DNA from: a virus
Virus record (IMG/VR): IMGVR_UViG_3300025759_000663
Location: 1 to 24,657 of that record
DNA: 24,657 bases
Strand: one strand, 5' to 3'
The translations under genes were made by a program, and so were the position numbers. The notes under the pieces are model-generated. The model saw nothing but the letters and a program-made list of their open reading frames with translations, had not been told where the DNA came from and ran no database searches. Shown in pieces: positions 4,332 to 21,037 of this stretch (positions are counted from its first letter, which is position 1; every line of letters begins with the position of its first letter).

Positions 4332-4753
4332 TATTCAACAGGCTCAAACAAACCAAGCTCAATTAATTTAGTTCTATTAGACTGATGTACAGCTTCTATT
4401 GCAGTTTTGTTTTGTCCAAAGTATTTTGCTGCCATATAATTTTCTACCATAGCATTATTTATATCTACGCCATCACAAACTATTGTTCCTAAAACTCTAC
4501 CAAACTTTCCTCTAGAGTCTCTAAGTTCTGTACGGATAATTACAGTATCTGCTTTTTCTATAGCATCACCCAAAAACTTAGCAGCTAGTTTGCCTCTAGC
4601 TTTTTCATCTTTGTTTCTTGTTCTAGACTCAGGAGTATCTATACCAAAAAGTCTTACTCTACTTTTGTATAAAACAGAAAACCCTAAATCTAGAGTAGCG
4701 TCTACAGTATCGCCATCTACTACTCTATCTATTGTGCATTTATATTCGTACAT
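4331..4753 (-). CDS. Staphylococcal-nuclease-like (thermonuclease, SNase) protein
   Basis: This 140-aa single-domain protein has the full SNase active site. VVDGDTV gives Asp15 (equivalent to Asp21 of the staphylococcal enzyme). RVRLFGIDTPES gives Arg34, Asp39, Thr40 and Glu42 (equivalent to Arg35, Asp40, Thr41 and Glu43). GKFGRVLG gives Arg86 (equivalent to Arg87). Family members are calcium-dependent phosphodiesterases that cut DNA and RNA. No signal peptide is seen, so it should act in the cytoplasm or after lysis. Its gene overlaps the small membrane protein gene upstream and touches the holin candidate downstream (TAATG). Possible roles are host DNA breakdown for nucleotide recycling or clearing DNA at lysis. 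The fold and activity call is firm; the role is inferred. Confidence 0.93.
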   Translation of the reverse strand: MYEYKCTIDRVVDGDTVDATLDLGFSVLYKSRVRLFGIDTPESRTRNKDEKARGKLAAKFLGDAIEKADTVIIRTELRDSRGKFGRVLGTIVCDGVDINNAMVENYMAAKYFGQNKTAIEAVHQSNRTKLIELGLFEPVE

Positions 4754-4925
4754 TATATTTTCTCTTGTTTCTTAAATATCTAAGATAAGCTTTCATATTT
4801 CTTTCAGCTCGTCTTTTCAAATAAAATTTTAATCCAAGCAAACCTAGCAGGAATGAAATGTTCAAGACTACTACAAAAACTAACTCGCTATTCAATGCAA
4901 GACTTTGTTTTCGTCTGCCTCCCAC
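4740..4925 (-). CDS. Small single-TM membrane protein, unknown
   Basis: This protein is 61 aa from a GTG at 4925, or 51 aa from an in-frame TTG at 4895 that overlaps the upstream stop as TTGA. The shorter form fits the coupling style of the neighbouring genes. A strongly hydrophobic segment (about residues 15-34 of the long form) is followed by a very basic tail rich in Arg, Lys and Tyr, giving an N-out/C-in topology by the positive-inside rule. It overlaps the nuclease gene by 14 bases. Small basic membrane proteins near lysis genes may be holins, antiholins or membrane-remodelling factors. No family is recognised. Confidence 0.5.
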   Translation of the reverse strand: MGGRRKQSLALNSELVFVVVLNISFLLGLLGLKFYLKRRAERNMKAYLRYLRNKRKYNVRI

Positions 4926-12888: not shown

Positions 12889-13529
12889 TATGTCCTCTTC
12901 TGTCTTAACATACCCTCAGCATAGGTATCTATAGTATTGTCTGCTTCCCCTAAGTTTTTCAATCTAGATATAGCTTGAAAATATCTTTTTTCATATTCAG
13001 CTAACATATCTTGTGCTCCCTTCATATATACATAACCCTCTATTAAACAGCCATATAACAAAGCATTTGTTGCATTTACTGATAACCAAGTTGTTCCACT
13101 CTCTGCTCCTGCTGTAATAGAAGCAGGTTTGTAAAAATAATGTAGCTCTACTGTTAAATTTAAACTTGGAGTTGGTGCCACTATAAAAGTATCATCATCA
13201 TAAAGAGCATAATGTTGTGGTGTTCCTGTTGCTGTTTTATCTGGGTATGCTTCTCTAATAAAGTTTACATCTCTAAAATATAAAAAGTTTTGAGACTGTC
13301 CACTAAAAACAGCTAAAGAAAAATTATCTAAAAAATCTGAGGGTGTAGATAAATATTCATTATTTGCAGTCAATTGACCGGTGACATTTTTTCTAAAGTT
13401 TGGAAGTTTTACGGATTTAACAATCCTTTCTTCTGCTTGTTTAATAATGTCAGGCAAATTAGAAACAAACGAAGTTTCGTTGTTTTCTAAATAATTCTGT
13501 ATTAAAGATTTTAATTCGCTATATGTCAT
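12888..13529 (-). CDS. Head-to-tail adaptor protein, SU10-adaptor-like
   Basis: This 213-aa protein opens with a helical MTYSELKSLIQNYLENNE, then KQAEERIVKSVKLPNFRK and a beta-rich middle (YLSTPSDFLDNFSLAVFSG, HYALYDDDTFIVAPTP, LTVELHYFYKP). A C-terminal helical part (ALLYGCLIEGYVYMKGAQDMLAEYEKRY) follows. This matches what I know of the phage SU10-type adaptor family that joins the portal to the tail. The order, directly behind the gp4-like gene and near the portal genes, fits. The call is by pattern; a structure comparison would settle it. Confidence 0.68.
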   Translation of the reverse strand: MTYSELKSLIQNYLENNETSFVSNLPDIIKQAEERIVKSVKLPNFRKNVTGQLTANNEYLSTPSDFLDNFSLAVFSGQSQNFLYFRDVNFIREAYPDKTATGTPQHYALYDDDTFIVAPTPSLNLTVELHYFYKPASITAGAESGTTWLSVNATNALLYGCLIEGYVYMKGAQDMLAEYEKRYFQAISRLKNLGEADNTIDTYAEGMLRQKRT

Positions 13530-14308
13530 GGTGTATTTGCTTGTCCTCCCATACCACTATGATTGGTACAGTAATAATAAAGAGTAGGTGCTCCAACAGC
13601 TACAGTTATTTGTGTGTATGCTCCTGCATTACCCGGAGTTCCATATGTTGTCACGCCTGTTGTATATTCACTTCCTCCTCCATGAGTTCCATCAGAAGTT
13701 GTAGAAAATCTTAATGGGTGAGTTGCATTACCGGCATTGCTTTGGTCAAACCTATAAGTCTTACCCTCTTCTAAAGTCAATGTAGGTTGTCTAACAGAGT
13801 CAATATAAAAACGATTACCTCCACCATAAGCTTGTACTGTGACTACATAGTTCGTTATTGCTAAGGCACTAACAGCATTTAAGTATGATGTTAATTGGTT
13901 TTGAGTTAATTGAACAGATACATTAGCCGGACTAGGTGAAGGACTAGGACTAGGCGAAGGACTAGGCGAAGGACTAGGACTAGGACTTGGCACATTAGTT
14001 GTTGTTATTGTGCTAAAGCCTATTCCTCCTCTTATGACCATGCCTGTACTGTTCAATGGATTAAATCCAAAATAACTTGTAGAGGCTGCCTCTCCTGAGT
14101 CAGGTCTAGGATTGTATAAACCTATATTGTCTGAAGTATCTACCTCTCCTATTCTATATTGAGGTTGGTCAGGGTCTATACAAGACGGACATATTCTACT
14201 GCCTGTTTTCTTTTGGTCTTGTACTTCGTATTTTAAATCTTTAAGTTTGTAGGTAAAGCCACATCTATCACAGATACCAATTGCTTTTTTACCTGCTGCA
14301 TATGCCAT
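13526..14308 (-). CDS. Zinc-ribbon/Pro-Ser linker/cupredoxin-like protein
   Basis: This 260-aa protein has three parts. Residues 11-43 hold two CxxC pairs (Cys13/Cys16 and Cys40/Cys43), a zinc-ribbon-type knuckle. Residues 107-127 are ten Pro-Ser dipeptides, a flexible linker. Residues of about 158-258 look like a cupredoxin domain: TYRFDQSNAG, then THPLRFST with His197, and a C-terminal YYYCTNHSGMGG giving Cys247, His250 and Met253. His, Cys, His, Met is the ligand set of type-1 (blue) copper sites. The gene lies between the gp4-like and adaptor genes, suggesting a virion location. Copper binding is inferred. The domain may also be a non-binding beta-sandwich relative. Confidence 0.65.
   Translation of the reverse strand: MAYAAGKKAIGICDRCGFTYKLKDLKYEVQDQKKTGSRICPSCIDPDQPQYRIGEVDTSDNIGLYNPRPDSGEAASTSYFGFNPLNSTGMVIRGGIGFSTITTTNVPSPSPSPSPSPSPSPSPSPSPANVSVQLTQNQLTSYLNAVSALAITNYVVTVQAYGGGNRFYIDSVRQPTLTLEEGKTYRFDQSNAGNATHPLRFSTTSDGTHGGGSEYTTGVTTYGTPGNAGAYTQITVAVGAPTLYYYCTNHSGMGGQANTP
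13931..13990 (-). repeat. Pro-Ser coding microsatellite (ten hexamer units)
   Basis: Ten tandem six-base units, read on the minus strand as CCN-AGT or CCT-TCN, encode the (Pro-Ser)10 linker of the cupredoxin-like protein. The Ser codons switch between AGT, TCG and TCA, so the repeat is partly degenerate at DNA level, but runs of identical AGTCCT units remain. Slippage could change the linker length in steps of two residues without a frameshift. Confidence 0.85.
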
Positions 14309-14310
14309 GG

Positions 14311-15000
14311 TTAATAACTATTAGTATTAGGCACAAATCTTATAGCAGCTCTTTCTCTATCTGCTTCTGATACTTCTTTCCAAAGTTCATCATACCTTTG
14401 CTTTATCATAGGTATTCGACTTTGAGATTGGTCATTCTTACAAGCTATGTTGTATGCCAAAGCATAAGTCAAACATGGTAAATATCTAGCAGGAACATCT
14501 GGATTTACACTTGCATTACCACCTGCATCTTCAATTCTTTTTATGTAATCATATAGCAAAGTATAGGTTTGCTTTGAGTCAGGTGTTGCCCAAACTCCTA
14601 TCTTTAATGTCAATCCTTTATCAACATAGTATTGTGTCGGCTTAGATTGCAAAAGTTTTTTAGCTTGATGGTTGTATTCAGTTCTACTTATCCTTGTAAG
14701 TCGTTGGTCAAATTGGTCTGCTACATCTCCTGCATCAGTTCTAATTACAGCATCAACTACTTCTAATGCTGTACTTTCTGCATCATATAAGTTTGTACCT
14801 GCAGTCAAAGTTATACTGCCTTGTTCTACTTTCCAAAGATTAAGTCCTTTGTTTTGCCATTCTAAAAAGATTAAATCCAATGCACGTTTAGCTGTGTTGT
14901 AATCTCCACCTGACATCATAGATAAACCACAGAGGTCAAATGCCTCTTCCATAAGTTCTGTGATATCTAAATTAAATCCGTAAGTTCCACTAGTCGCCAT
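14311..15000 (-). CDS. Tail accessory/connector protein, P22 gp4-like
   Basis: This 229-aa protein opens MATSGTYGFNLDITELMEEAFDLCG and continues with YNTAKRALDLIFLEWQNKGLNLWKVEQG (key parts NLDITELMEEAF and LEWQNKGLNLW). A beta-strand domain follows (ITLTAGTNLYD), with a C-terminal helical tail. I recognise this organisation from many podovirus-like marine genomes as the connector placed next to the portal, related to the P22 gp4 tail accessory factor. It lies beside the zinc-ribbon protein and near the SU10-like adaptor. The role would be closing the head and joining it to the tail. The family call is from memory. Confidence 0.68.
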   Translation of the reverse strand: MATSGTYGFNLDITELMEEAFDLCGLSMMSGGDYNTAKRALDLIFLEWQNKGLNLWKVEQGSITLTAGTNLYDAESTALEVVDAVIRTDAGDVADQFDQRLTRISRTEYNHQAKKLLQSKPTQYYVDKGLTLKIGVWATPDSKQTYTLLYDYIKRIEDAGGNASVNPDVPARYLPCLTYALAYNIACKNDQSQSRIPMIKQRYDELWKEVSEADRERAAIRFVPNTNSY

Positions 15001-15112
15001 ATCTAACTCTTATTACTGTTATGTCTCCTCGCTTTTCTTGGGTTATGATTTTTTGTTTTTTTTTACCAGACTTTTCAATCTGTTCTTGCATATTAGTTCT
15101 AGCTATCGTCAT
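14990..15112 (-). CDS. Very small basic protein, unknown (40 aa)
   Basis: This short reading frame begins at an ATG (15112) that overlaps the stop of the upstream basic protein as ATGA, and its stop overlaps the start of the gp4-like gene by 11 bases. Such coupling on both sides supports a real gene. The 40-aa product begins MTIARTNMQEQIEKSGKKKQ and is strongly basic in the middle. It belongs by position and composition to the run of small basic proteins at 15109-16527. No function can be given. Confidence 0.55.
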   Translation of the reverse strand: MTIARTNMQEQIEKSGKKKQKIITQEKRGDITVIRVRYGD

Positions 15113-15348
15113 CTGTACCTCGCTGTTTTTTTTGCAATGTTCTTTGGTTGTTTTACAAACTGTTTGCCTTTTTTAGTTCCTTTTCTTTTAGCTCTTGTAG
15201 TAGCTGCATATTCTGCAGAAGATAAAGCTTTAATTGCTTTTTCCGGTAGATAACGCTCTCCTGTTTTGCCCGAAGGTTTACCAGACTTTGTTCTCCATTT
15301 TTGTTTAGTCCAATTCTTTAAAGACCTTTGTGACTTTTTTAAAGGCAT
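15109..15348 (-). CDS. Small basic phage protein (79 aa), unnamed family
   Basis: Of the 79 residues, about a third are Lys or Arg. The body shows LKNWTKQKWRTKSGKPS, then RYLPEKAIKALSSAEYAATTRAKRKGTKKGKQF. I recognise this RYLP-KAI-AL-x-AEYAATT-KR pattern from many marine phage and giant-virus-like genomes, where it is an uncharacterised family. The charge suggests DNA or RNA binding. It starts in a TAATG junction and ends in an ATGA junction, so it is an integral part of the operon. Confidence 0.72.
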   Translation of the reverse strand: MPLKKSQRSLKNWTKQKWRTKSGKPSGKTGERYLPEKAIKALSSAEYAATTRAKRKGTKKGKQFVKQPKNIAKKTARYR

Positions 15349-15590
15349 TACTTACCGACTTTTTTCATAGCAGCTTTATGAGCTTTTTCAAAACTCTTAC
15401 CGGCTTCCATCATTTTTTCCATAGCAGACATATGCTTTTTAGAATGATGTTTACCATGTTCTTTCATTTGTTTTTTTTGTGCAGGAGTTAAACCACCTGC
15501 TTTCATAAATCCCATTTTATTCCTAACATCAGTAGGAAGCTTACTTAAACCTTTATTTCCCTCAGGAACTTCTCTAAGTTTCTTATTCAT
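15348..15590 (-). CDS. Small Lys/Met-rich basic protein (80 aa)
   Basis: This 80-aa protein is rich in Lys, Met and His (QKKQMKEHGKHHSKKHMSAM), with a helical C-terminal half (AMEKMMEAGKSFEKAHKAAM). It begins MNKKLREVPEGNKGLSKLP. No known domain is seen. Its size, charge and neighbours point to a nucleic-acid-binding or condensing role, or to a small virion-packaged protein. It has ATGA/TAATG overlaps with both neighbours. Confidence 0.65.
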   Translation of the reverse strand: MNKKLREVPEGNKGLSKLPTDVRNKMGFMKAGGLTPAQKKQMKEHGKHHSKKHMSAMEKMMEAGKSFEKAHKAAMKKVGK

Positions 15591-15778
15591 TTGTATCCAC
15601 CACCTTTAGCTTTATATTGTTTAGCTAACATCTGAGCTTTACGTGCAGACCATTGACCCGGCTTACCACCTTTGCTACCTGCTTTAATTCTATTAAAAAG
15701 ATTTTTACGCATAGTAGGTTTTGTATAATTACCTGCTTCATTAACTCTTGATTTAGATTTTTTTGCTCTACTCACCAC
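15587..15778 (-). CDS. Small basic protein (63 aa), recurrent in marine phages
   Basis: The stretch RVNEAGNYTKPTMRKNLFNR followed by IKAGSKGGKPGQWSARKAQM is highly characteristic. I know near-identical sequences from cyanophage and pelagiphage genomes. The function is not known. It is basic and Gly-rich, without membrane segments. The start overlaps the upstream gene by seven bases and the stop overlaps the next start by four. Confidence 0.75.
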   Translation of the reverse strand: MVSRAKKSKSRVNEAGNYTKPTMRKNLFNRIKAGSKGGKPGQWSARKAQMLAKQYKAKGGGYK

Positions 15779-16065
15779 TTCACCTTATCTGCCCAATAAG
15801 CTGCTGACATCTTACCTTTTTTAATATTTTTTGCATGACGAGCTTTGAAGGATTTTCGTTTTGCTTTCATACGTGCAGACTCTCCTGCTTTAGGTTTACC
15901 TGCAGTCTTAGCTCCTTTTTGTCCAAACCTAATAGTTTTTACTTTGTTGCCTTCTTTAGCAACAACAATATGAGACTTCTTAGGGTGGTTAGGAGTACGC
16001 TTAGGTTTGTTATAACCTGATACTCCTGCCCTTTTTAAACGAGAGTCCTTCTTAGCTCCTGACAT
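15772..16065 (-). CDS. Small basic protein (97 aa), recurrent in marine phages
   Basis: The sequence contains SGYNKPKRTPNHPKKSHIVV, then AKEGNKVKTIRFGQKG, a Lys-rich linker and KARHAKNIKKGKMSAAYWAD at the end. This is a recurrent, uncharacterised family of marine tailed phages. The middle (VVAKEG-KVKTIRFG) should form a beta-hairpin, and the C-terminus a helix. It has a TAATG junction with the 50-aa gene upstream. Nucleic-acid binding is plausible from charge alone. Confidence 0.78.
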   Translation of the reverse strand: MSGAKKDSRLKRAGVSGYNKPKRTPNHPKKSHIVVAKEGNKVKTIRFGQKGAKTAGKPKAGESARMKAKRKSFKARHAKNIKKGKMSAAYWADKVKW

Positions 16066-16217
16066 TATTTGCCTGTCTTACCACCACGGAACATAGCAGA
16101 CATTGGTGCCTTCTTTTTCATAACACCACCACCCATATAGGTTTGATGTTTATTTTTTTTAAGACCACCACCATGTCCATAAGACATCTTTTTATTTTTT
16201 TTCATGTCGCCCGGCAT
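16065..16217 (-). CDS. Very small Gly/Lys/Met-rich basic protein (50 aa)
   Basis: This short frame runs from an ATG at 16217 to a TAA overlapping the next start (TAATG). A GAGG ribosome site lies upstream (AAGTGAGGTAATT). The 50-aa product contains MSYGHGGGLKKNKHQTYMGG and MSAMFRGGKTGK, with Gly-Gly-Gly turns between basic segments. It fills what would otherwise be a 160-base gap in the operon. Similar Gly/Lys/Met-rich mini-proteins occur in marine phages. The function is unknown. Confidence 0.65.
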   Translation of the reverse strand: MPGDMKKNKKMSYGHGGGLKKNKHQTYMGGGVMKKKAPMSAMFRGGKTGK

Positions 16218-16224
16218 AATTACC

Positions 16225-16527
16225 TCACTTCTTTTTTGTAGTAGCTTTCTTTTTAGCTACGGGTTTTTTCTTAGTTGTTTTTTTCTTTGGTGCTTTTCCA
16301 CCTACATATGCTTCATTTACATCAGGTGTTGAAGGGTCATCAGCCACATAGTGACCTTTTGCTGTTCTAGCTCTGACACCATTTAGTTCATCTGCTTTTC
16401 TTTGAGCGTCTGCTAAATCAGGGTCAGGTCCGAATACAACTTCATATATACCTTCAGCATTTGCTTGTAAAACAAAATACTGTGGGGGAAAACCACTTGT
16501 AGAAATAATTGCTTTCTTACTTGCCAT
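16225..16527 (-). CDS. Small protein with Lys-rich C-terminal tail (100 aa)
   Basis: Residues 1-75 look folded: a beta-type start (YFVLQANAEGIYEVVFGPD) and a helix (LADAQRKADELNGVRAR). The last 25 residues are nearly all Lys, Thr and Ala (KKKTTKKKPVAKKK), a histone-tail-like end. An AAGGAG site precedes the ATG. It is the first of the run of basic proteins and may bind DNA or RNA. No family is recognised. Confidence 0.65.
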   Translation of the reverse strand: MASKKAIISTSGFPPQYFVLQANAEGIYEVVFGPDPDLADAQRKADELNGVRARTAKGHYVADDPSTPDVNEAYVGGKAPKKKTTKKKPVAKKKATTKKK

Positions 16528-16536
16528 ATTAACTCC

Positions 16537-16938
16537 TTAATACGTTTTTATCATTTCAAGAGTAATAGAATAGGTATCCCCATTACTAGCACCCTTAGTT
16601 GTGAAAAGAACGTCACCATTCTTTCCTGTTCCTGCATTATTTGGAATACCACCAAAATCCGAATAGTCCATATGCCCATTACTACTTTCTGCCAACTCCA
16701 TGATTAAAACATTAGCATTAGCATTAAAAAATAATTGAACAGACATACCAACAATGGCATGGCTTACTCGTACTATTTTAACTCCGGAACAAGCTGTTCC
16801 TTCTGAGTTAGCAGATAAAGCAGAAACGTCTACTTTAGCTACAGCACTTTCACCCGTGCCATCACTAACATTGGTAAATTTCATAACACAGTTTCTGTCG
16901 CCATCTATAATAGTCTGGCTTGTGACTGCATCTGCCAT
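16537..16938 (-). CDS. Small virion structural protein, beta-rich
   Basis: This 133-aa protein opens MADAVTSQTIIDGDRNCVMK, followed by FTNVSDGTGESAVAKVDVSA and alternating strands (VQLFFNANANVLIMELAES, MDYSDFGGIPNNAG, GDVLFTTKGAS) ending in a SITLEMIKTY strand. I recognise the type from marine phage structural modules. It lies between a decoration-like protein and the basic mini-proteins, and is probably a capsid or head-attached component. It has a weak AAAGG ribosome site. Confidence 0.65.
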   Translation of the reverse strand: MADAVTSQTIIDGDRNCVMKFTNVSDGTGESAVAKVDVSALSANSEGTACSGVKIVRVSHAIVGMSVQLFFNANANVLIMELAESSNGHMDYSDFGGIPNNAGTGKNGDVLFTTKGASNGDTYSITLEMIKTY

Positions 16939-16947
16939 AATTTACCT

Positions 16948-17403
16948 TTAACTTAGATTGTTGTTTTGGATATATAAGACTGTTGCCGTAGCAGCTCCGG
17001 TGGTTGAGTCACCATTTGCTCCGGTGAAGTCGGCTAGAACTTGAATGTCAGTAGTTCCAACATCAGTAGCTTCAGTATCTAAAGTACCTCTTGTTGTTGC
17101 AAGTGCTTTTACATTTTGTCCATCAATAAAAGCATTTCCGTCTGCTGCTGTACCAATAGATACAGTAGCTGCACCACCATCATTATTAACAGTAGTGACG
17201 TTTAATACGACATCAATAATTTGTGAATTAGCCGGTATAGTAGCTATTACTTGGTTTAAGTGACTTGCACCAAGAATATCTACAACTGCAGATTGTGCCA
17301 TAACAACTGAGCCGGTATTAGCGACATCAGTACCTACAGTAGTTCCGGTTGTGTCTTTGATAGTCCCTGCTTTAACAGGTCCTGTAAATGTAGTTGTTGC
17401 CAT
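16948..17403 (-). CDS. Small virion structural protein, beta-sandwich type
   Basis: This 151-aa protein is Ala/Thr/Val/Asn-rich with few charges. It has repeating beta segments such as IDVVLNVTTVNNDGGAATVS, followed by IGTAADG, and it ends with ATVLYIQNNNLS. It is made behind a very strong ribosome site (AAGGAGGG, seven bases before the ATG), suggesting high expression, as expected of a head or decoration protein. It follows the terminator-bearing gap behind the major capsid gene. The exact role is not known. Confidence 0.62.
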   Translation of the reverse strand: MATTTFTGPVKAGTIKDTTGTTVGTDVANTGSVVMAQSAVVDILGASHLNQVIATIPANSQIIDVVLNVTTVNNDGGAATVSIGTAADGNAFIDGQNVKALATTRGTLDTEATDVGTTDIQVLADFTGANGDSTTGAATATVLYIQNNNLS

Positions 17404-17520: not shown

Positions 17521-18432
17521 TTAGCTTGACCCCGGAGAGCCGAAGATACCTAGAGGGTCTGATACTCCAAAGGAATATCTTTCTCTAGCCTTGTATCTAA
17601 CGTTTCCTGTGTCAAAATCCCCGTCCATGCTTGTAGTCATTGGACTTCTTACAAAGTGCTTCATTCCGTCAGGAATGTCAGTAGTAATGAAGAAGGCATT
17701 AGGGTCAGTTAAATAATGGTTAACTGAGAAACCTTCTGGAATAACACCATTAGTTTTAATAGCGTTAATGTCATTATCTGCTGTTCCTACTCGGTAGTCA
17801 CTTTGTAGCAGTCTAGTTGCTACAAACTGAAGAGCAGAAGGTATGATTAACTTTCTTGCTCTGGCAGCGATTTTCAGACCTCTTTCGTCTGTGTATCCAC
17901 CGATTTGAATAATTGCATCTTCTAAAGATACTTCGTTCAAATCAGCACCTGTGGCAGGTCTATTACTATTTGTACCACCATTAACTAATGGGTGTGCTGT
18001 ACTAAATAGAGTCACACCATCACCACCATTAAAGGAAGTAAAACCATTGTTCAAAGGAACAACACTTTTTACTTGCTTGGTGTAAGCCATAGCTCTAGCT
18101 AAAGCTTTAGTGTATCTAGCTGAAAGCGAAACATAGAGGTTATCCTCCATTGCTTCTTCAGTTATAGCATATCCCATTGCAATAGTTTCGTGAGTATAAC
18201 GAGCTACAAAAGACTCTTGAGCTGTGTCATAACTGATAGCAGCACCCTCGTCTTTAACAGGAGCAGCTCCGAAACCTGATAACTTTAACTCTTCCTCGAA
18301 ACTTCTTTCAGAGTTTTCAGTCACGTAGATATCTTCGTGCTCGTTTTCGTAGTTGTTGTACTCTTCGCCAAATAATGCGTTAAGACCCGGAAGGAGCTGT
18401 TTAAGCTCATTTGCTCTTGATATAGCAGCCAT
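17521..18432 (-). CDS. Major capsid protein (Mu gpT-like, HK97-fold type)
   Basis: This 303-aa protein carries motifs of the gpT-like major head subunit group: LSGFGAAPVKDEGAAISYDT (about 51-70), FVARYTHETIAMGYAITEEA (about 74-93), then MEDNLYVSL, ARAMAYTKQ and GVTLFSTAHPLVNGG. A C-terminal beta part ends in RYSFGVSDPLGIFG. The length fits an HK97-fold subunit without a long delta domain. It has a strong AAGGAG ribosome site and its own terminator, in line with high expression. Its place behind scaffold and decoration genes agrees. The assignment is from motif memory and context. Confidence 0.88.
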   Translation of the reverse strand: MAAISRANELKQLLPGLNALFGEEYNNYENEHEDIYVTENSERSFEEELKLSGFGAAPVKDEGAAISYDTAQESFVARYTHETIAMGYAITEEAMEDNLYVSLSARYTKALARAMAYTKQVKSVVPLNNGFTSFNGGDGVTLFSTAHPLVNGGTNSNRPATGADLNEVSLEDAIIQIGGYTDERGLKIAARARKLIIPSALQFVATRLLQSDYRVGTADNDINAIKTNGVIPEGFSVNHYLTDPNAFFITTDIPDGMKHFVRSPMTTSMDGDFDTGNVRYKARERYSFGVSDPLGIFGSPGSS

Positions 18433-19098: not shown

Positions 19099-19611
19099 AC
19101 CAAAAGTCGTTTTTGATTTGCGTTCGTAAACTTGTTTAGTTGCCATTCTACTATCTTGGTCTTTGAAGTAAGTGTTATCAACAGTTTCAACCTGTTGTTG
19201 TGCCATATCTGAAAAATGCTTTTCACGTGCTTTCGCTCGTTCTTCCGGCATTTTGCATAATAGCAATCCACCAACTTCTATATTACCTTTTGCTGCCCAT
19301 TCTGAATTATGGTCTTGCATATGTATCTGTAGTTCTGGGTGGTCCTCTAAACGACAAGGTGACCAACCATCTCGAAAACTTTTAGATACATTAGGGTTGT
19401 CAGAATTTCCAACTAAGGAAGTTCTTACCCATCTGAAAACCCACCCTTCTTGTGGGTCTGGGTCAGGTAGATTGGCTGTGTTTTCCCAATTCTGATAACG
19501 TTGGGTAGCCTCTCGGCTATCTAATCCCCTAGGGGAACGCTCTTGGTCAGAGGAGTTCACAGAACTTTCCTCCACTTCATTTTCATTTGATGTGTTATCT
19601 TGCTCTGTCAT
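19087..19611 (-). CDS. Conserved head-module protein, unknown function
   Basis: This 174-aa polar protein has a disordered acidic N-terminus (about 1-45), then PQEGWVFRWVRTSLVGNSDN (54-73), VSKSFRDGWSPCRLEDHPEL, a GGLLLCKMPEERAKAREKHF segment and a basic C-terminus. The WVFRW-RTS ... DNxNVSKxFRDGW and GGLLLCKMPEE patterns recur in marine phages next to scaffold and capsid genes. It may be a scaffold accessory or internal head protein. The AAAGGAG ribosome site is clear. The function is not established. Confidence 0.72.
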   Translation of the reverse strand: MTEQDNTSNENEVEESSVNSSDQERSPRGLDSREATQRYQNWENTANLPDPDPQEGWVFRWVRTSLVGNSDNPNVSKSFRDGWSPCRLEDHPELQIHMQDHNSEWAAKGNIEVGGLLLCKMPEERAKAREKHFSDMAQQQVETVDNTYFKDQDSRMATKQVYERKSKTTFGKDS

Positions 19612-20636
19612 ACTTGCTCCTTTAATAATTGATTTGCATACTGCTCCGGACTTATACCAAGTTGTCGAGCTATCTTAACTTGAGTCTGGGTCAGACGTAC
19701 TTGCGAGGGTTTAGAGTTTCCGGTGTTCCTCGTGGCACCGGCAACAACTGTTTGAGGTTGTCTATCTTTTGTTTCAACCACTTCTTCCGAAGGTGTTTGT
19801 TGAATACCAAAAAAATTCGGGAACTTATTACGCATTTCTTTATCTACTTCTGCATAATACTTCTCTGCTTCTTTAGCAGGGTCTATGCCATTAGTTCTTA
19901 ATGCGTTGTCAACATACATAGCATATGATGACATTTCTTTGTGGATTGGCTCAGTACCCATAAACCATGGGTTTTTAGCTGCCCACCTTTGTAAATCTTC
20001 ATCTATTTGTTGAGGTTGTTGTTCAGGTTTTTCCTCAACCGGCAAGTCATTAAGTATTTGTGTTTGTACTTGCTGAGACATATTGTTAGCTGTTTGCTCT
20101 GCAAGAACTGCTTTAGAAAGTTGTTCTTGAGCCTCAGCCATTTTATCTGCGTCACCTGCCTCATAAGCAGACTTATACATTGCTTGTGCATTTTGTTTTG
20201 CCCATAAAGCATTGTTTGCTGCTTGTTTATTTAATACTTCTCCACCTTGGTCTACTAAAGCTTGTAGCTTTTTATTTTCTTCCATAAGAGCTGACAGTCT
20301 TTGTATTGCTTCTTGCGACTCTCTAGTAGCCTGTTCTTTAGCTCTACGTTCCTCATGGTAGTCGTATTTTAATTTATTAATTCTGTCACCGGCTCTCTTA
20401 GAGTAGTCGGTTATCTCAGCATCTAGCGTGTCATCATCAACTTCTACTTCTTCAACGCTTTCATCTCGTGGAGGTCGTCTATCTTCTGCAGGAACATCAT
20501 CTATAATCTCAACAGATAAATCTTCTGGAACTGTATTATCGACTTCCATTGTTTTGCCAAAGAATTTTTCTTCTTCGGACGTGGTAGGCTGACTATCTAT
20601 AATCGGCTCTTCATTTATGATTTCAGTATTGCTCAT
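19608..20636 (-). CDS. Capsid scaffold-like protein
   Basis: This 342-aa, very acidic protein has an N-terminal disordered region (about 1-75, rich in Glu, Asp, Pro, Val), a long coiled-coil helix (about 85-145, DRINKLKYDYHEERRAKEQA onwards), a Gln-rich middle and a C-terminal TQVKIARQLGISPEQYANQL helix. Acidic, helical and placed just upstream of the head genes, it is a typical scaffold that guides procapsid assembly and then leaves. There is no protease motif. The start and stop overlap both neighbours by four bases (ATGA). Confidence 0.78.
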   Translation of the reverse strand: MSNTEIINEEPIIDSQPTTSEEEKFFGKTMEVDNTVPEDLSVEIIDDVPAEDRRPPRDESVEEVEVDDDTLDAEITDYSKRAGDRINKLKYDYHEERRAKEQATRESQEAIQRLSALMEENKKLQALVDQGGEVLNKQAANNALWAKQNAQAMYKSAYEAGDADKMAEAQEQLSKAVLAEQTANNMSQQVQTQILNDLPVEEKPEQQPQQIDEDLQRWAAKNPWFMGTEPIHKEMSSYAMYVDNALRTNGIDPAKEAEKYYAEVDKEMRNKFPNFFGIQQTPSEEVVETKDRQPQTVVAGATRNTGNSKPSQVRLTQTQVKIARQLGISPEQYANQLLKEQV

Positions 20637-21037
20637 GCTCTTACTACTCCTGTTGGGTCATCAACGACTGCTTCCACAGTATCGTCATTTATTAAACGAA
20701 ACTCTTGTCCATACATGACCATACGAGTACCTGAGTAAGCTCTAAAGATTACCCAATCTCCTTTTTGACACCAAGGTCCTGAAGGAAATCTTTGTTTATC
20801 TTTATAGGCTTCAGGTCCAATCTTTAAGACATATCCACATATATTAGATACTTCTTCGTCTTTGATTGTTTGTGAGGCTTTAATAATACCACCCTCCGTC
20901 TTTTCATCTGCTTGTGGCATAGCTACTAATATCTTCCAACCTTTAGGGTCAGGTAGCTGTGTCTTAACATCTTCTTTTACGGGTGGAGCTTTTACACTCT
21001 CTGGGTCTGGGATATTTTCTAGTTTTACTTCACTCAT
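20633..21037 (-). CDS. GroES-like (Cpn10, gp31-type) co-chaperonin
   Basis: This 134-aa protein has a 30-residue acidic N-terminal extension followed by a Cpn10-like barrel: KGWKILVAMPQADEKTEGGI (residues of about 32-51), then the mobile-loop-like IIKASQTIKDEEVSN, GYVLKIGPEAYKDKQRFPSG, CQKGDWVIFRAYSGTRMVMY and GQEFRLINDDTVEAVVDDP. Phage co-chaperonins such as T4 gp31 replace host GroES so that host GroEL can fold the capsid protein. No GroEL gene is in the window. The neighbours (scaffold and capsid genes) fit that role. The fold call is strong. Confidence 0.85.
   Translation of the reverse strand: MSEVKLENIPDPESVKAPPVKEDVKTQLPDPKGWKILVAMPQADEKTEGGIIKASQTIKDEEVSNICGYVLKIGPEAYKDKQRFPSGPWCQKGDWVIFRAYSGTRMVMYGQEFRLINDDTVEAVVDDPTGVVRA

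Follow-up and report, generated by a model that had tools for sequence, protein, structure and literature searches.

What do seven small basic proteins do when their genes lie between the major capsid gene and the head-tail connector gene of a virus? The question is raised by the DNA of 24,657 nucleotides of IMG/VR virus record IMGVR_UViG_3300025759_000663 (positions 1 to 24,657; this whole stretch is called the window), in which the minus strand at 14990-16527 carries seven consecutive open reading frames (ORFs) of 100, 50, 97, 63, 80, 79 and 40 aa in the window ORF list. A sequence-only reading had placed six tiny basic ORFs at these coordinates; the coordinates held, while the number of ORFs proved to be seven. 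With a probability of roughly 0.45, the block is read here as a cassette, expressed late, whose small basic proteins take part in head assembly and enter the procapsid, and which is lodged in a variable slot of the capsid module; late expression is judged from position. Three observations go beyond the sequence-only reading: g63 and g79 look like halves of one family, g97 and the Pfam family DUF6321 exclude each other, and the g97 domain is fused to capsid proteases. The genes, named by length, are as follows.

16225..16527, minus strand: g100, 100 aa, a small N-terminal region plus a Lys-rich C-terminal tail; heads the basic block
16065..16217, minus strand: g50, 50 aa, Gly/Lys-rich, of a narrow lineage
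15772..16065, minus strand: g97, 97 aa, phrog_7595
15587..15778, minus strand: g63, 63 aa, GTG start, phrog_17747; putative N-terminal half of a split DUF5872-like protein
15348..15590, minus strand: g80, 80 aa, fast-evolving, inserted between g63 and g79
15109..15348, minus strand: g79, 79 aa, phrog_14910; putative C-terminal half of the split DUF5872-like protein
14990..15112, minus strand: g40, 40 aa, sharing 4 nt with g79 and 11 nt with the adaptor gene, of a narrow lineage

The g97 domain was found inside proteins annotated for capsid maturation and head building. In ICP1 gp125, annotated as the capsid protease and adjoining scaffold, decoration and coat genes, the g97 profile matches residues 173-261 (expect value (E) 3e-12) after a Peptidase_S78_2 domain at 36-160. 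The opposite order, domain then protease, was observed in gp107 of Aeromonas phage 4L372XY (g97 profile at 64-150, E 2e-17; S78_2 at 176-287). In ICP1 gp125 and its relatives (phrog_9979, phrog_1530; Peptidase_S78_2/XkdF) the domain is a fused, uncharged accessory, whereas g97 of the window is free-standing and strongly basic. Furthermore, gp012 of Aphanizomenon phage CL131, a portal-InPase-MuF protein of phrog_220 type, carries a g97-like domain at 528-604 (E 9e-14), between Phage_portal_3 (60-419) and InPase (631-752), with Phage_Mu_F at 991-1103; this is a multidomain protein of 1393 aa, in contrast to the single small domains of the window. The family phrog_220, labelled 'minor head protein and DNA pilot', is matched by 37 of the 43 members of the g97 alignment (best E 1e-18). 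Free-standing g97 lies in S-H1, KBS-S-2A and MED4-184 between the MuF/head morphogenesis gene and the gene preceding the capsid gene, the latter a putative scaffold gene according to the S-H1 annotation. Conserved in g97 is a compact domain in which a Pro, a Val, a Gly and two Trp are invariant in both alignments, and its core is predicted to be folded (AF2 mean pLDDT 86). Judged from sequence, the fusions to XkdF-type capsid proteases and within a portal-InPase-MuF protein appear to be new here, and fusion to a capsid protease in both orders suggests a role in assembly.

Slots without g97 often contain another very basic protein of about 96 aa, Pfam DUF6321 (PF19846), examples being HTVC010P gp43 and a P-TIM40 protein. 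The DUF6321 cut-off of 28.5 bits was passed in 10 of 11 records, the eleventh, G001 (the long relative of the window), giving no match. DUF6321 resembles g97 in size, charge, slot, the company of g63-g79 and a short RRKSFxAR-like motif, and differs in that it never shared a record or a locus with g97. The loci counted here and below were seeded by relatives of the window genes and kept best-first, and are not a random sample; their ORFs were called mechanically, and some contigs recur under several locus ids, duplicates being removed only in the next count (identical g79 DNA) and in the g79 tree (identical proteins). Among 226 deduplicated g63+g79 loci, g97 was found in 130, DUF6321 in 62, both in none and neither in 34. 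When 45 records were searched whole with both profiles, 35 had only g97 and 10 only DUF6321, with none having both or neither; these records were hand-chosen from about 490 loci and the g97-seeded ones carry g97 by construction, and the 14 that entered through g63 (10) or capsid (4) seeds also hold exactly one of the two. The copy number of g97 is one in 34 of 37 records and zero in 3. On the g79 tree of 185 loci, poorly resolved for so short a protein, parsimony places 26 changes of the g97/DUF6321 label (52.8 on average after shuffling), and supported clades contain both states, 6 of the 7 listed being non-nested. This tree count is a fairer measure than Fisher p-values, which take related contigs to be independent. 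The label changes and mixed clades argue for repeated swapping of g97 and DUF6321 without co-existence, apparently described here for the first time; no report of the exclusion was found in the open literature (subscription papers were outside the scope). In S-B43, a protein of 427 aa that is annotated 'structural protein' and encoded near the terminase gene has DUF6321 as its C-terminal domain. At L478:6846-7373, a DUF6321-type domain follows a stretch that looks HNH-like by eye within one ORF of 175 aa.

The genes g63 and g79 behave as one unit, which is likewise new here. Of the 45 g79-seeded loci that extend 1500 bp or more upstream, 44 have g63 ahead of g79 on the same strand, and among the first 160 loci (six annotated, the rest g97- or g63-seeded) 122 of the 123 with g63 also have g79. 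A single g63-g79 polypeptide occurs in 11 of 493 loci, and g79-g97 fusions occur in 3 of 493. Seven of the ten g63-g79 fusions scanned match Pfam DUF5872 (PF19197; best E 1.6e-5), and in the fusion at L060 residues 5-115 align to positions 2-109 of 116 (E 2.2e-4). Co-linear coverage of the whole profile, g63 then g79, was found on such fused relatives and not on the window's own pair; in the records searched the fused phage forms covered similar spans of the profile and reached at most 25.2 bits against the curated cut-off of 27.5, and the split g63 and g79 of the window and of G001 gave no Pfam match to DUF5872. Most simply, g63 and g79 would be two halves of one DUF5872-like protein: the fusion spans the profile nearly end to end, with the differences that the window phage has two genes with g80 inserted between them and that the fused phage forms of the records searched stay under the cut-off. 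Since the model of the fusion has a pTM of 0.49, no contact between the halves is claimed, and neither sequence nor fold searches of the PDB gave a believable relative of the fusion. The PBCV basic adaptor domain (PF08789, 20.4 bits) was tried for the g79 half and matched in 0 of 10 records, with no control matched either. A scan of genome contigs with a fused DUF5872-like protein as the query gave one metagenome-assembled genome contig, and DUF5872 is also annotated in an algal giant virus, according to the available part of the source (PMC12085832). In addition, g79 forms the N-terminal domain of Gly-rich proteins of 415 and 454 aa (L142:6410-7657 and L121:5761-7125), the second of which matches tail tape-measure families in its C-terminal part.

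As the sequence-only reading had stated, the block lies between head and connector genes, the bordering features being these.

17521..18432, minus strand: major capsid protein (MCP), phrog_371; upstream border of the slot
16948-17403 and 16537-16938: two acidic genes between the MCP gene and the basic block
14311..15000, minus strand: SU10_adaptor-family head-tail connector, Pfam PF24175 (E 1e-11); downstream border of the slot

The order of the module is terminase, portal, a GroES-like gene, acidic g342 and g174, g195, MCP, the two acidic genes, the basic block, the SU10-type adaptor and tail genes. A candidate for the acidic scaffold is encoded at 19608-20636. Both MCP and adaptor are visible in 37 of 80 capsid-seeded loci; in 22 of these 37 slots at least one of g97, g63 and g79 lies between them, with g63 and g79 together in 18 and singly in none. 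A net charge of at least +0.08 per residue was found for 41% of 202 slot ORFs (DUF6321 included) versus 9% of 349 ORFs outside. The variable content and the enrichment in basic ORFs show the slot to be a variable cassette site favouring small basic proteins. Neighbouring genes of the loci belong, among others, to terminase, portal, head-tail adaptor, scaffold, tail and endolysin families, each a minority of the 149 neighbour representatives scanned (152 clusters), the commonest being phrog_2 (terminase) with 5.

How these proteins might act, what they might bind and whether they reach the particle can be proposed from the fusions, position, pairing and alternation seen in the sequences. Under the head-assembly reading, g97 or DUF6321 would be a protein-binding factor of the procapsid interior, placed at the meeting point of portal, protease and acidic scaffold, and may serve as a targeting or adaptor factor that, for example, recruits components of the core or of maturation to the shell interior. 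Its partner would be g63-g79, the basic DUF5872-like pair, which would bind either the acidic scaffold or the incoming DNA. A fraction of the copies probably stays in the virion as minor internal proteins. The remaining genes g100, g50, g80 and g40 are lineage-specific companions.

Several points weigh against this reading. In the open literature, neither a function for the g97, g63 and g79 families nor a result from virion proteomics, knock-outs or binding experiments on any free-standing member was found, and the roles of the fusion partners are annotations. No PDB fold matched g97, and PDB sequence searches with g97, ICP1 gp125 and profiles A4, A6 and A8 yielded no believable relative of it. 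The S78_2 protease (PF14550) gave no match in 35 of 37 g97/DUF6321 records and none in g97 or G001. Homology between g97 and DUF6321 was not shown (profile-profile probabilities 4.7 and 17), so that alternation is claimed for families that may or may not be related, and a common family is not claimed. The 34 of 226 paired loci with neither family are perhaps explained by contig ends. Moreover, 15 of the 37 capsid-adaptor slots are without g97, g63 and g79, at least four of them (L416, L417, L418, L424) having DUF6321; HTVC027P, the best-covered phage-record match to the head region of the window, likewise has DUF6321 and none of the three. Just one of g63 and g79 appears in 7 of the 80 capsid-seeded loci, many of which are truncated; 32 of 80 g97-seeded loci, some on short contigs, show neither, and a divergent g97 clade is rarely beside the pair (of its 77 loci, 18 have g79 and 7 have both). 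The genes of HMO-2011 and the CRP phages have lysis and terminase genes nearby, and the stretch shown contains no capsid gene; HTVC008M has no annotated head gene in the surroundings of g97. This placement is the late region and not strictly the head module.

Proteins loaded into the head could also be effectors that are delivered to the host together with the DNA and, at an early stage of infection, attach to its nucleic acid or proteins, an explanation we regard as doubtful. It is consistent with the g97 domain within the portal-InPase-MuF protein, since a similar architecture was read as virion-packaged and injected by Iyer et al. 2017 (PMC5512222, available text), with the variable content of the slot, as expected of a conflict cassette, and with its richness in small basic proteins of several families. 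The predicted model of g63-g79 also matched in BFVD, over 48 columns at 56% identity and presumably through the g63 half, a 1022-aa phage protein annotated ParB/Sulfiredoxin. On the other hand, searches of the seven proteins with Pfam, PHROG and NCBIfam revealed no enzymatic domain (the anti-defence library PADLOC was not searched), NCBIfam giving no match at all for any of the seven. Purifying selection, described below, and the presence of just one g97 or DUF6321 gene in each of the 45 records resemble a housekeeping virion function, and the capsid-protease fusion in both orders points to assembly. Polyvalent proteins are defined by 2 to 15 domains per polypeptide; the block encodes single small domains, and only the distant relative in CL131 is multidomain.

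Unlikely as well are late nucleic-acid binders outside the virion, such as RNA or ribosome binders or regulators, that merely ride in the late operon. The genes of HMO-2011, CRP-13 and HTVC033P, near lysis or terminase genes and not the capsid gene, would fit such a role, as would a composition that by eye is like that of ribosomal proteins. The fusions to portal/MuF, to a capsid protease and to an annotated structural protein argue against it, as does the position of g97 next to the scaffold gene in three cyanosiphophages.

The charge of the block bears on a further explanation. All seven proteins are basic, as had been claimed, with isoelectric points (pI) of 9.8-11.3 and net charges per residue of +0.09 to +0.29, whereas 33 of the 34 other listed minus-strand ORFs stand at or below +0.03; in random order, the chance of finding seven adjacent among the eight basic ORFs of this hand-picked list of 41 is about 1e-5. 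To call all of them very basic was too much: g100 (net +9) is basic solely through its C-terminal Lys tail, and g40 is just moderately basic (+5). The proteins might condense DNA or neutralise its charge in the head, like the protamine-like proteins of eukaryotic DNA viruses, and chlorovirus PBCV-1 offers a precedent of basic proteins that are packaged and DNA-bound, according to the available text of the source (PMC3281028); this we consider quite improbable. Measured homologues of g63 and g79 are indeed all positive (minimum +0.145 and +0.114 per residue among 130 and 142 domains), in keeping with family-wide conserved charge, and DNA condensation may still apply to these two. This does not hold for g97: its 216 domains have a median charge of +0.22 per residue, but the net charge is 0 in 4L372XY, +1 in ICP1 and +1 in GR7B over 87-89 residues. 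These uncharged forms suggest that charge is not the trait that the g97 family conserves, and together with the compact conserved domain they weaken DNA condensation for g97, which the sequence-only reading had put forward, and favour specific protein contacts. Such contacts are also suggested by the one-copy alternation with DUF6321 and the protease fusion, and the predicted g97 core is folded and not protamine-like. The same source states, in its available text, that evidence for a large contribution of basic proteins to the neutralisation of phage dsDNA does not exist (PMC3281028).

That several of these genes recur in marine phages without a known role was borne out. In tblastn searches g97, g63 and g79 were found in 46, 17 and 19 phage records (some phages have two), ranging over roseophages, pelagiphages, HMO-2011, cyanophages, SIO1-like phages, a Vibrio phage and others, and scans of viral contigs gave at least 600, at least 600 and at least 599 stretches. 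Roseophage CRP-1, HMO-2011, HTVC033P, MEP401 and cyanophage S-H1 are among the cultured phages with the set. Residues 4-97 of g97 match phrog_7595 (E 1.5e-42) and residues 3-63 of g63 match phrog_17747 (E 1.8e-38), both near full length, and residues 1-79 of g79 match phrog_14910 over the full length (E 8.5e-41). Ratios of nonsynonymous to synonymous substitution rates (dN/dS) against the relative L008 are 0.10, 0.05 and 0.03 for g97, g63 and g79, with few changes each, and point to strong purifying selection on the three. For g100, g50 and g40 they are 0.23, 0.12 and 0.18, again with few changes each, and 0.55 for g80; across the rows shown g100 ranges over 0.10-0.30. Relatives of g100 occur in 55 of 493 loci, own copies included. 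The spread of g50 and g40 is narrow, each being in 18 of 493 loci, own copies included, or about 12 other contigs of one lineage; with reading frames kept across three protein variants of g50 and two of g40, they look like genuine genes. The sequence-only reading had named absence of conservation outside this genome among the findings that would refute it; all seven genes are conserved outside it, g50 and g40 narrowly. That some of the ORFs are non-functional or neutral filler is very improbable: the narrow confinement of g50 and g40 and the fast evolution of g80 would allow it, but the kept frames of g50 and g40 speak against it, and it is refuted for g97, g63 and g79 by low dN/dS, hundreds of homologues and, in a control, 0 matches of the g97, g63, g79 and DUF6321 profiles in 34076 reversed ORFs. 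Separately, the window, L008 and L260-L264 share an identical C-terminal half of g50, while the N-terminal half differs among the three variants.

Beyond phages, Pfam DUF5754 (PF19058) gave sub-threshold matches in 9 of the 43 g97-alignment members (E at most 0.05, best 1.5e-4), and the curated cut-off of 27.4 bits was missed by g97 at 14.7 bits and by the best of 12 records at 20.9. In a Foldseek search of BFVD, the predicted g97 model matched an uncharacterised Tunisvirus protein with probability 0.99. DUF5754 corresponds to Tlr6F/OLV2, an uncharacterised protein that polinton-like viruses, virophages and giant viruses carry and that is found in some phages, according to the available parts of the sources (PMC4642659, PMC12220804, PMC3671162, PMC8547959). 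One of these, in the same partial form, describes Tlr6F as a protein that nearly all polinton-like viruses conserve, as do several virophages, many giant viruses and some phages, and that has no detectable similarity to a functionally known domain (PMC4642659). Here g97 is called a distant relative of Tlr6F/DUF5754 and not a member: like Tlr6F/OLV2 it is a small single-domain protein, and it differs in staying under the Pfam cut-off. The available portions of the Tlr6F/DUF5754 papers make no mention of a g63-g79 link, DUF6321 exclusion or protease and portal fusions. A bolder proposal, which is speculative and more probably wrong than right, would make g97 (Tlr6F-like) and DUF6321 two exchangeable forms of a single head-maturation factor that almost all aquatic tailed phages possess, with a DUF5872 partner that phages have split in two; the same set in polinton-like and giant viruses would then be a capsid-assembly or packaging aid shared by Duplodnaviria and Varidnaviria. 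If g97 is the phage relative of Tlr6F, the capsid-protease fusions, that of ICP1 included, give a concrete handle on Tlr6F, a long-standing gene of unknown function that thereby becomes testable; for ICP1 a procapsid-assembly platform in E. coli exists, as stated in the available part of the source (PMC10945586). The linked and exclusive pattern would also explain fixed combinations of tiny marine-phage genes and predict which may replace which.

Some minor observations concern g97 relatives. In S-H1 (L172:5753-5977) a protein with a Hva1_TUDOR domain directly precedes g97, in CRP-901 (L167:3995-4252) a g97 relative is annotated as an HVA1 family protein, and another BFVD match of the predicted g97 model is annotated ChaB. 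The phage OVC8 was dropped from the relevant phages as a VP2-like podovirus, and the available part of the PhiGT1 paper holds nothing on these families.

The genes of the block are overlapping or adjacent, as first described: the junction spacings from g100 to the adaptor gene are +7, -1, -7, -4, -1, -4 and -11 nt, every junction except the first being an overlap on the minus strand. An AAGGAG motif lies upstream of g100, and the Pfam SPOR family reached 15.5 bits on g100, under its cut-off of 21 bits.

The inserted g80 matches phrog_31838 (E 0.001) and has relatives in 113 loci of the set of 493, which includes 79 loci seeded with g80; g63 and g79 are also present in 42 of those 79. It carries a motif of about 25 aa, LPxxVRxKMG[FY] / GLxKLPxxVRNKMG[FY]M followed by GG, which could be a mobile targeting or processing signal. 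The motif occurs at differing positions in otherwise unlike small proteins near g97, g63 or g79 (L003, L064, L128, L143, L152, L219, L223, L225, L228 and others).

Elsewhere in the window, the gene after the capsid gene (16948-17403) weakly matches, at E 3.4e-5, a PHROG that bears the label Rz-like spanin, which is unexpected within a head module. The head module also holds a GroES co-chaperonin gene at 20633-21037 (phrog_3188, E 1.9e-14), and HTVC027P and 023Pt_psg01 likewise have a GroES gene near their capsid genes. A Pro-Ser repeat linker occurs in the gene that follows the adaptor gene (13526-14308), and the C-terminal part of this gene's product matches families of tail fibre and wedge proteins. 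An isolated basic ORF of 61 aa with a hydrophobic stretch and a pI of 11.5 lies at 4740-4925, downstream of the tail-fibre gene.

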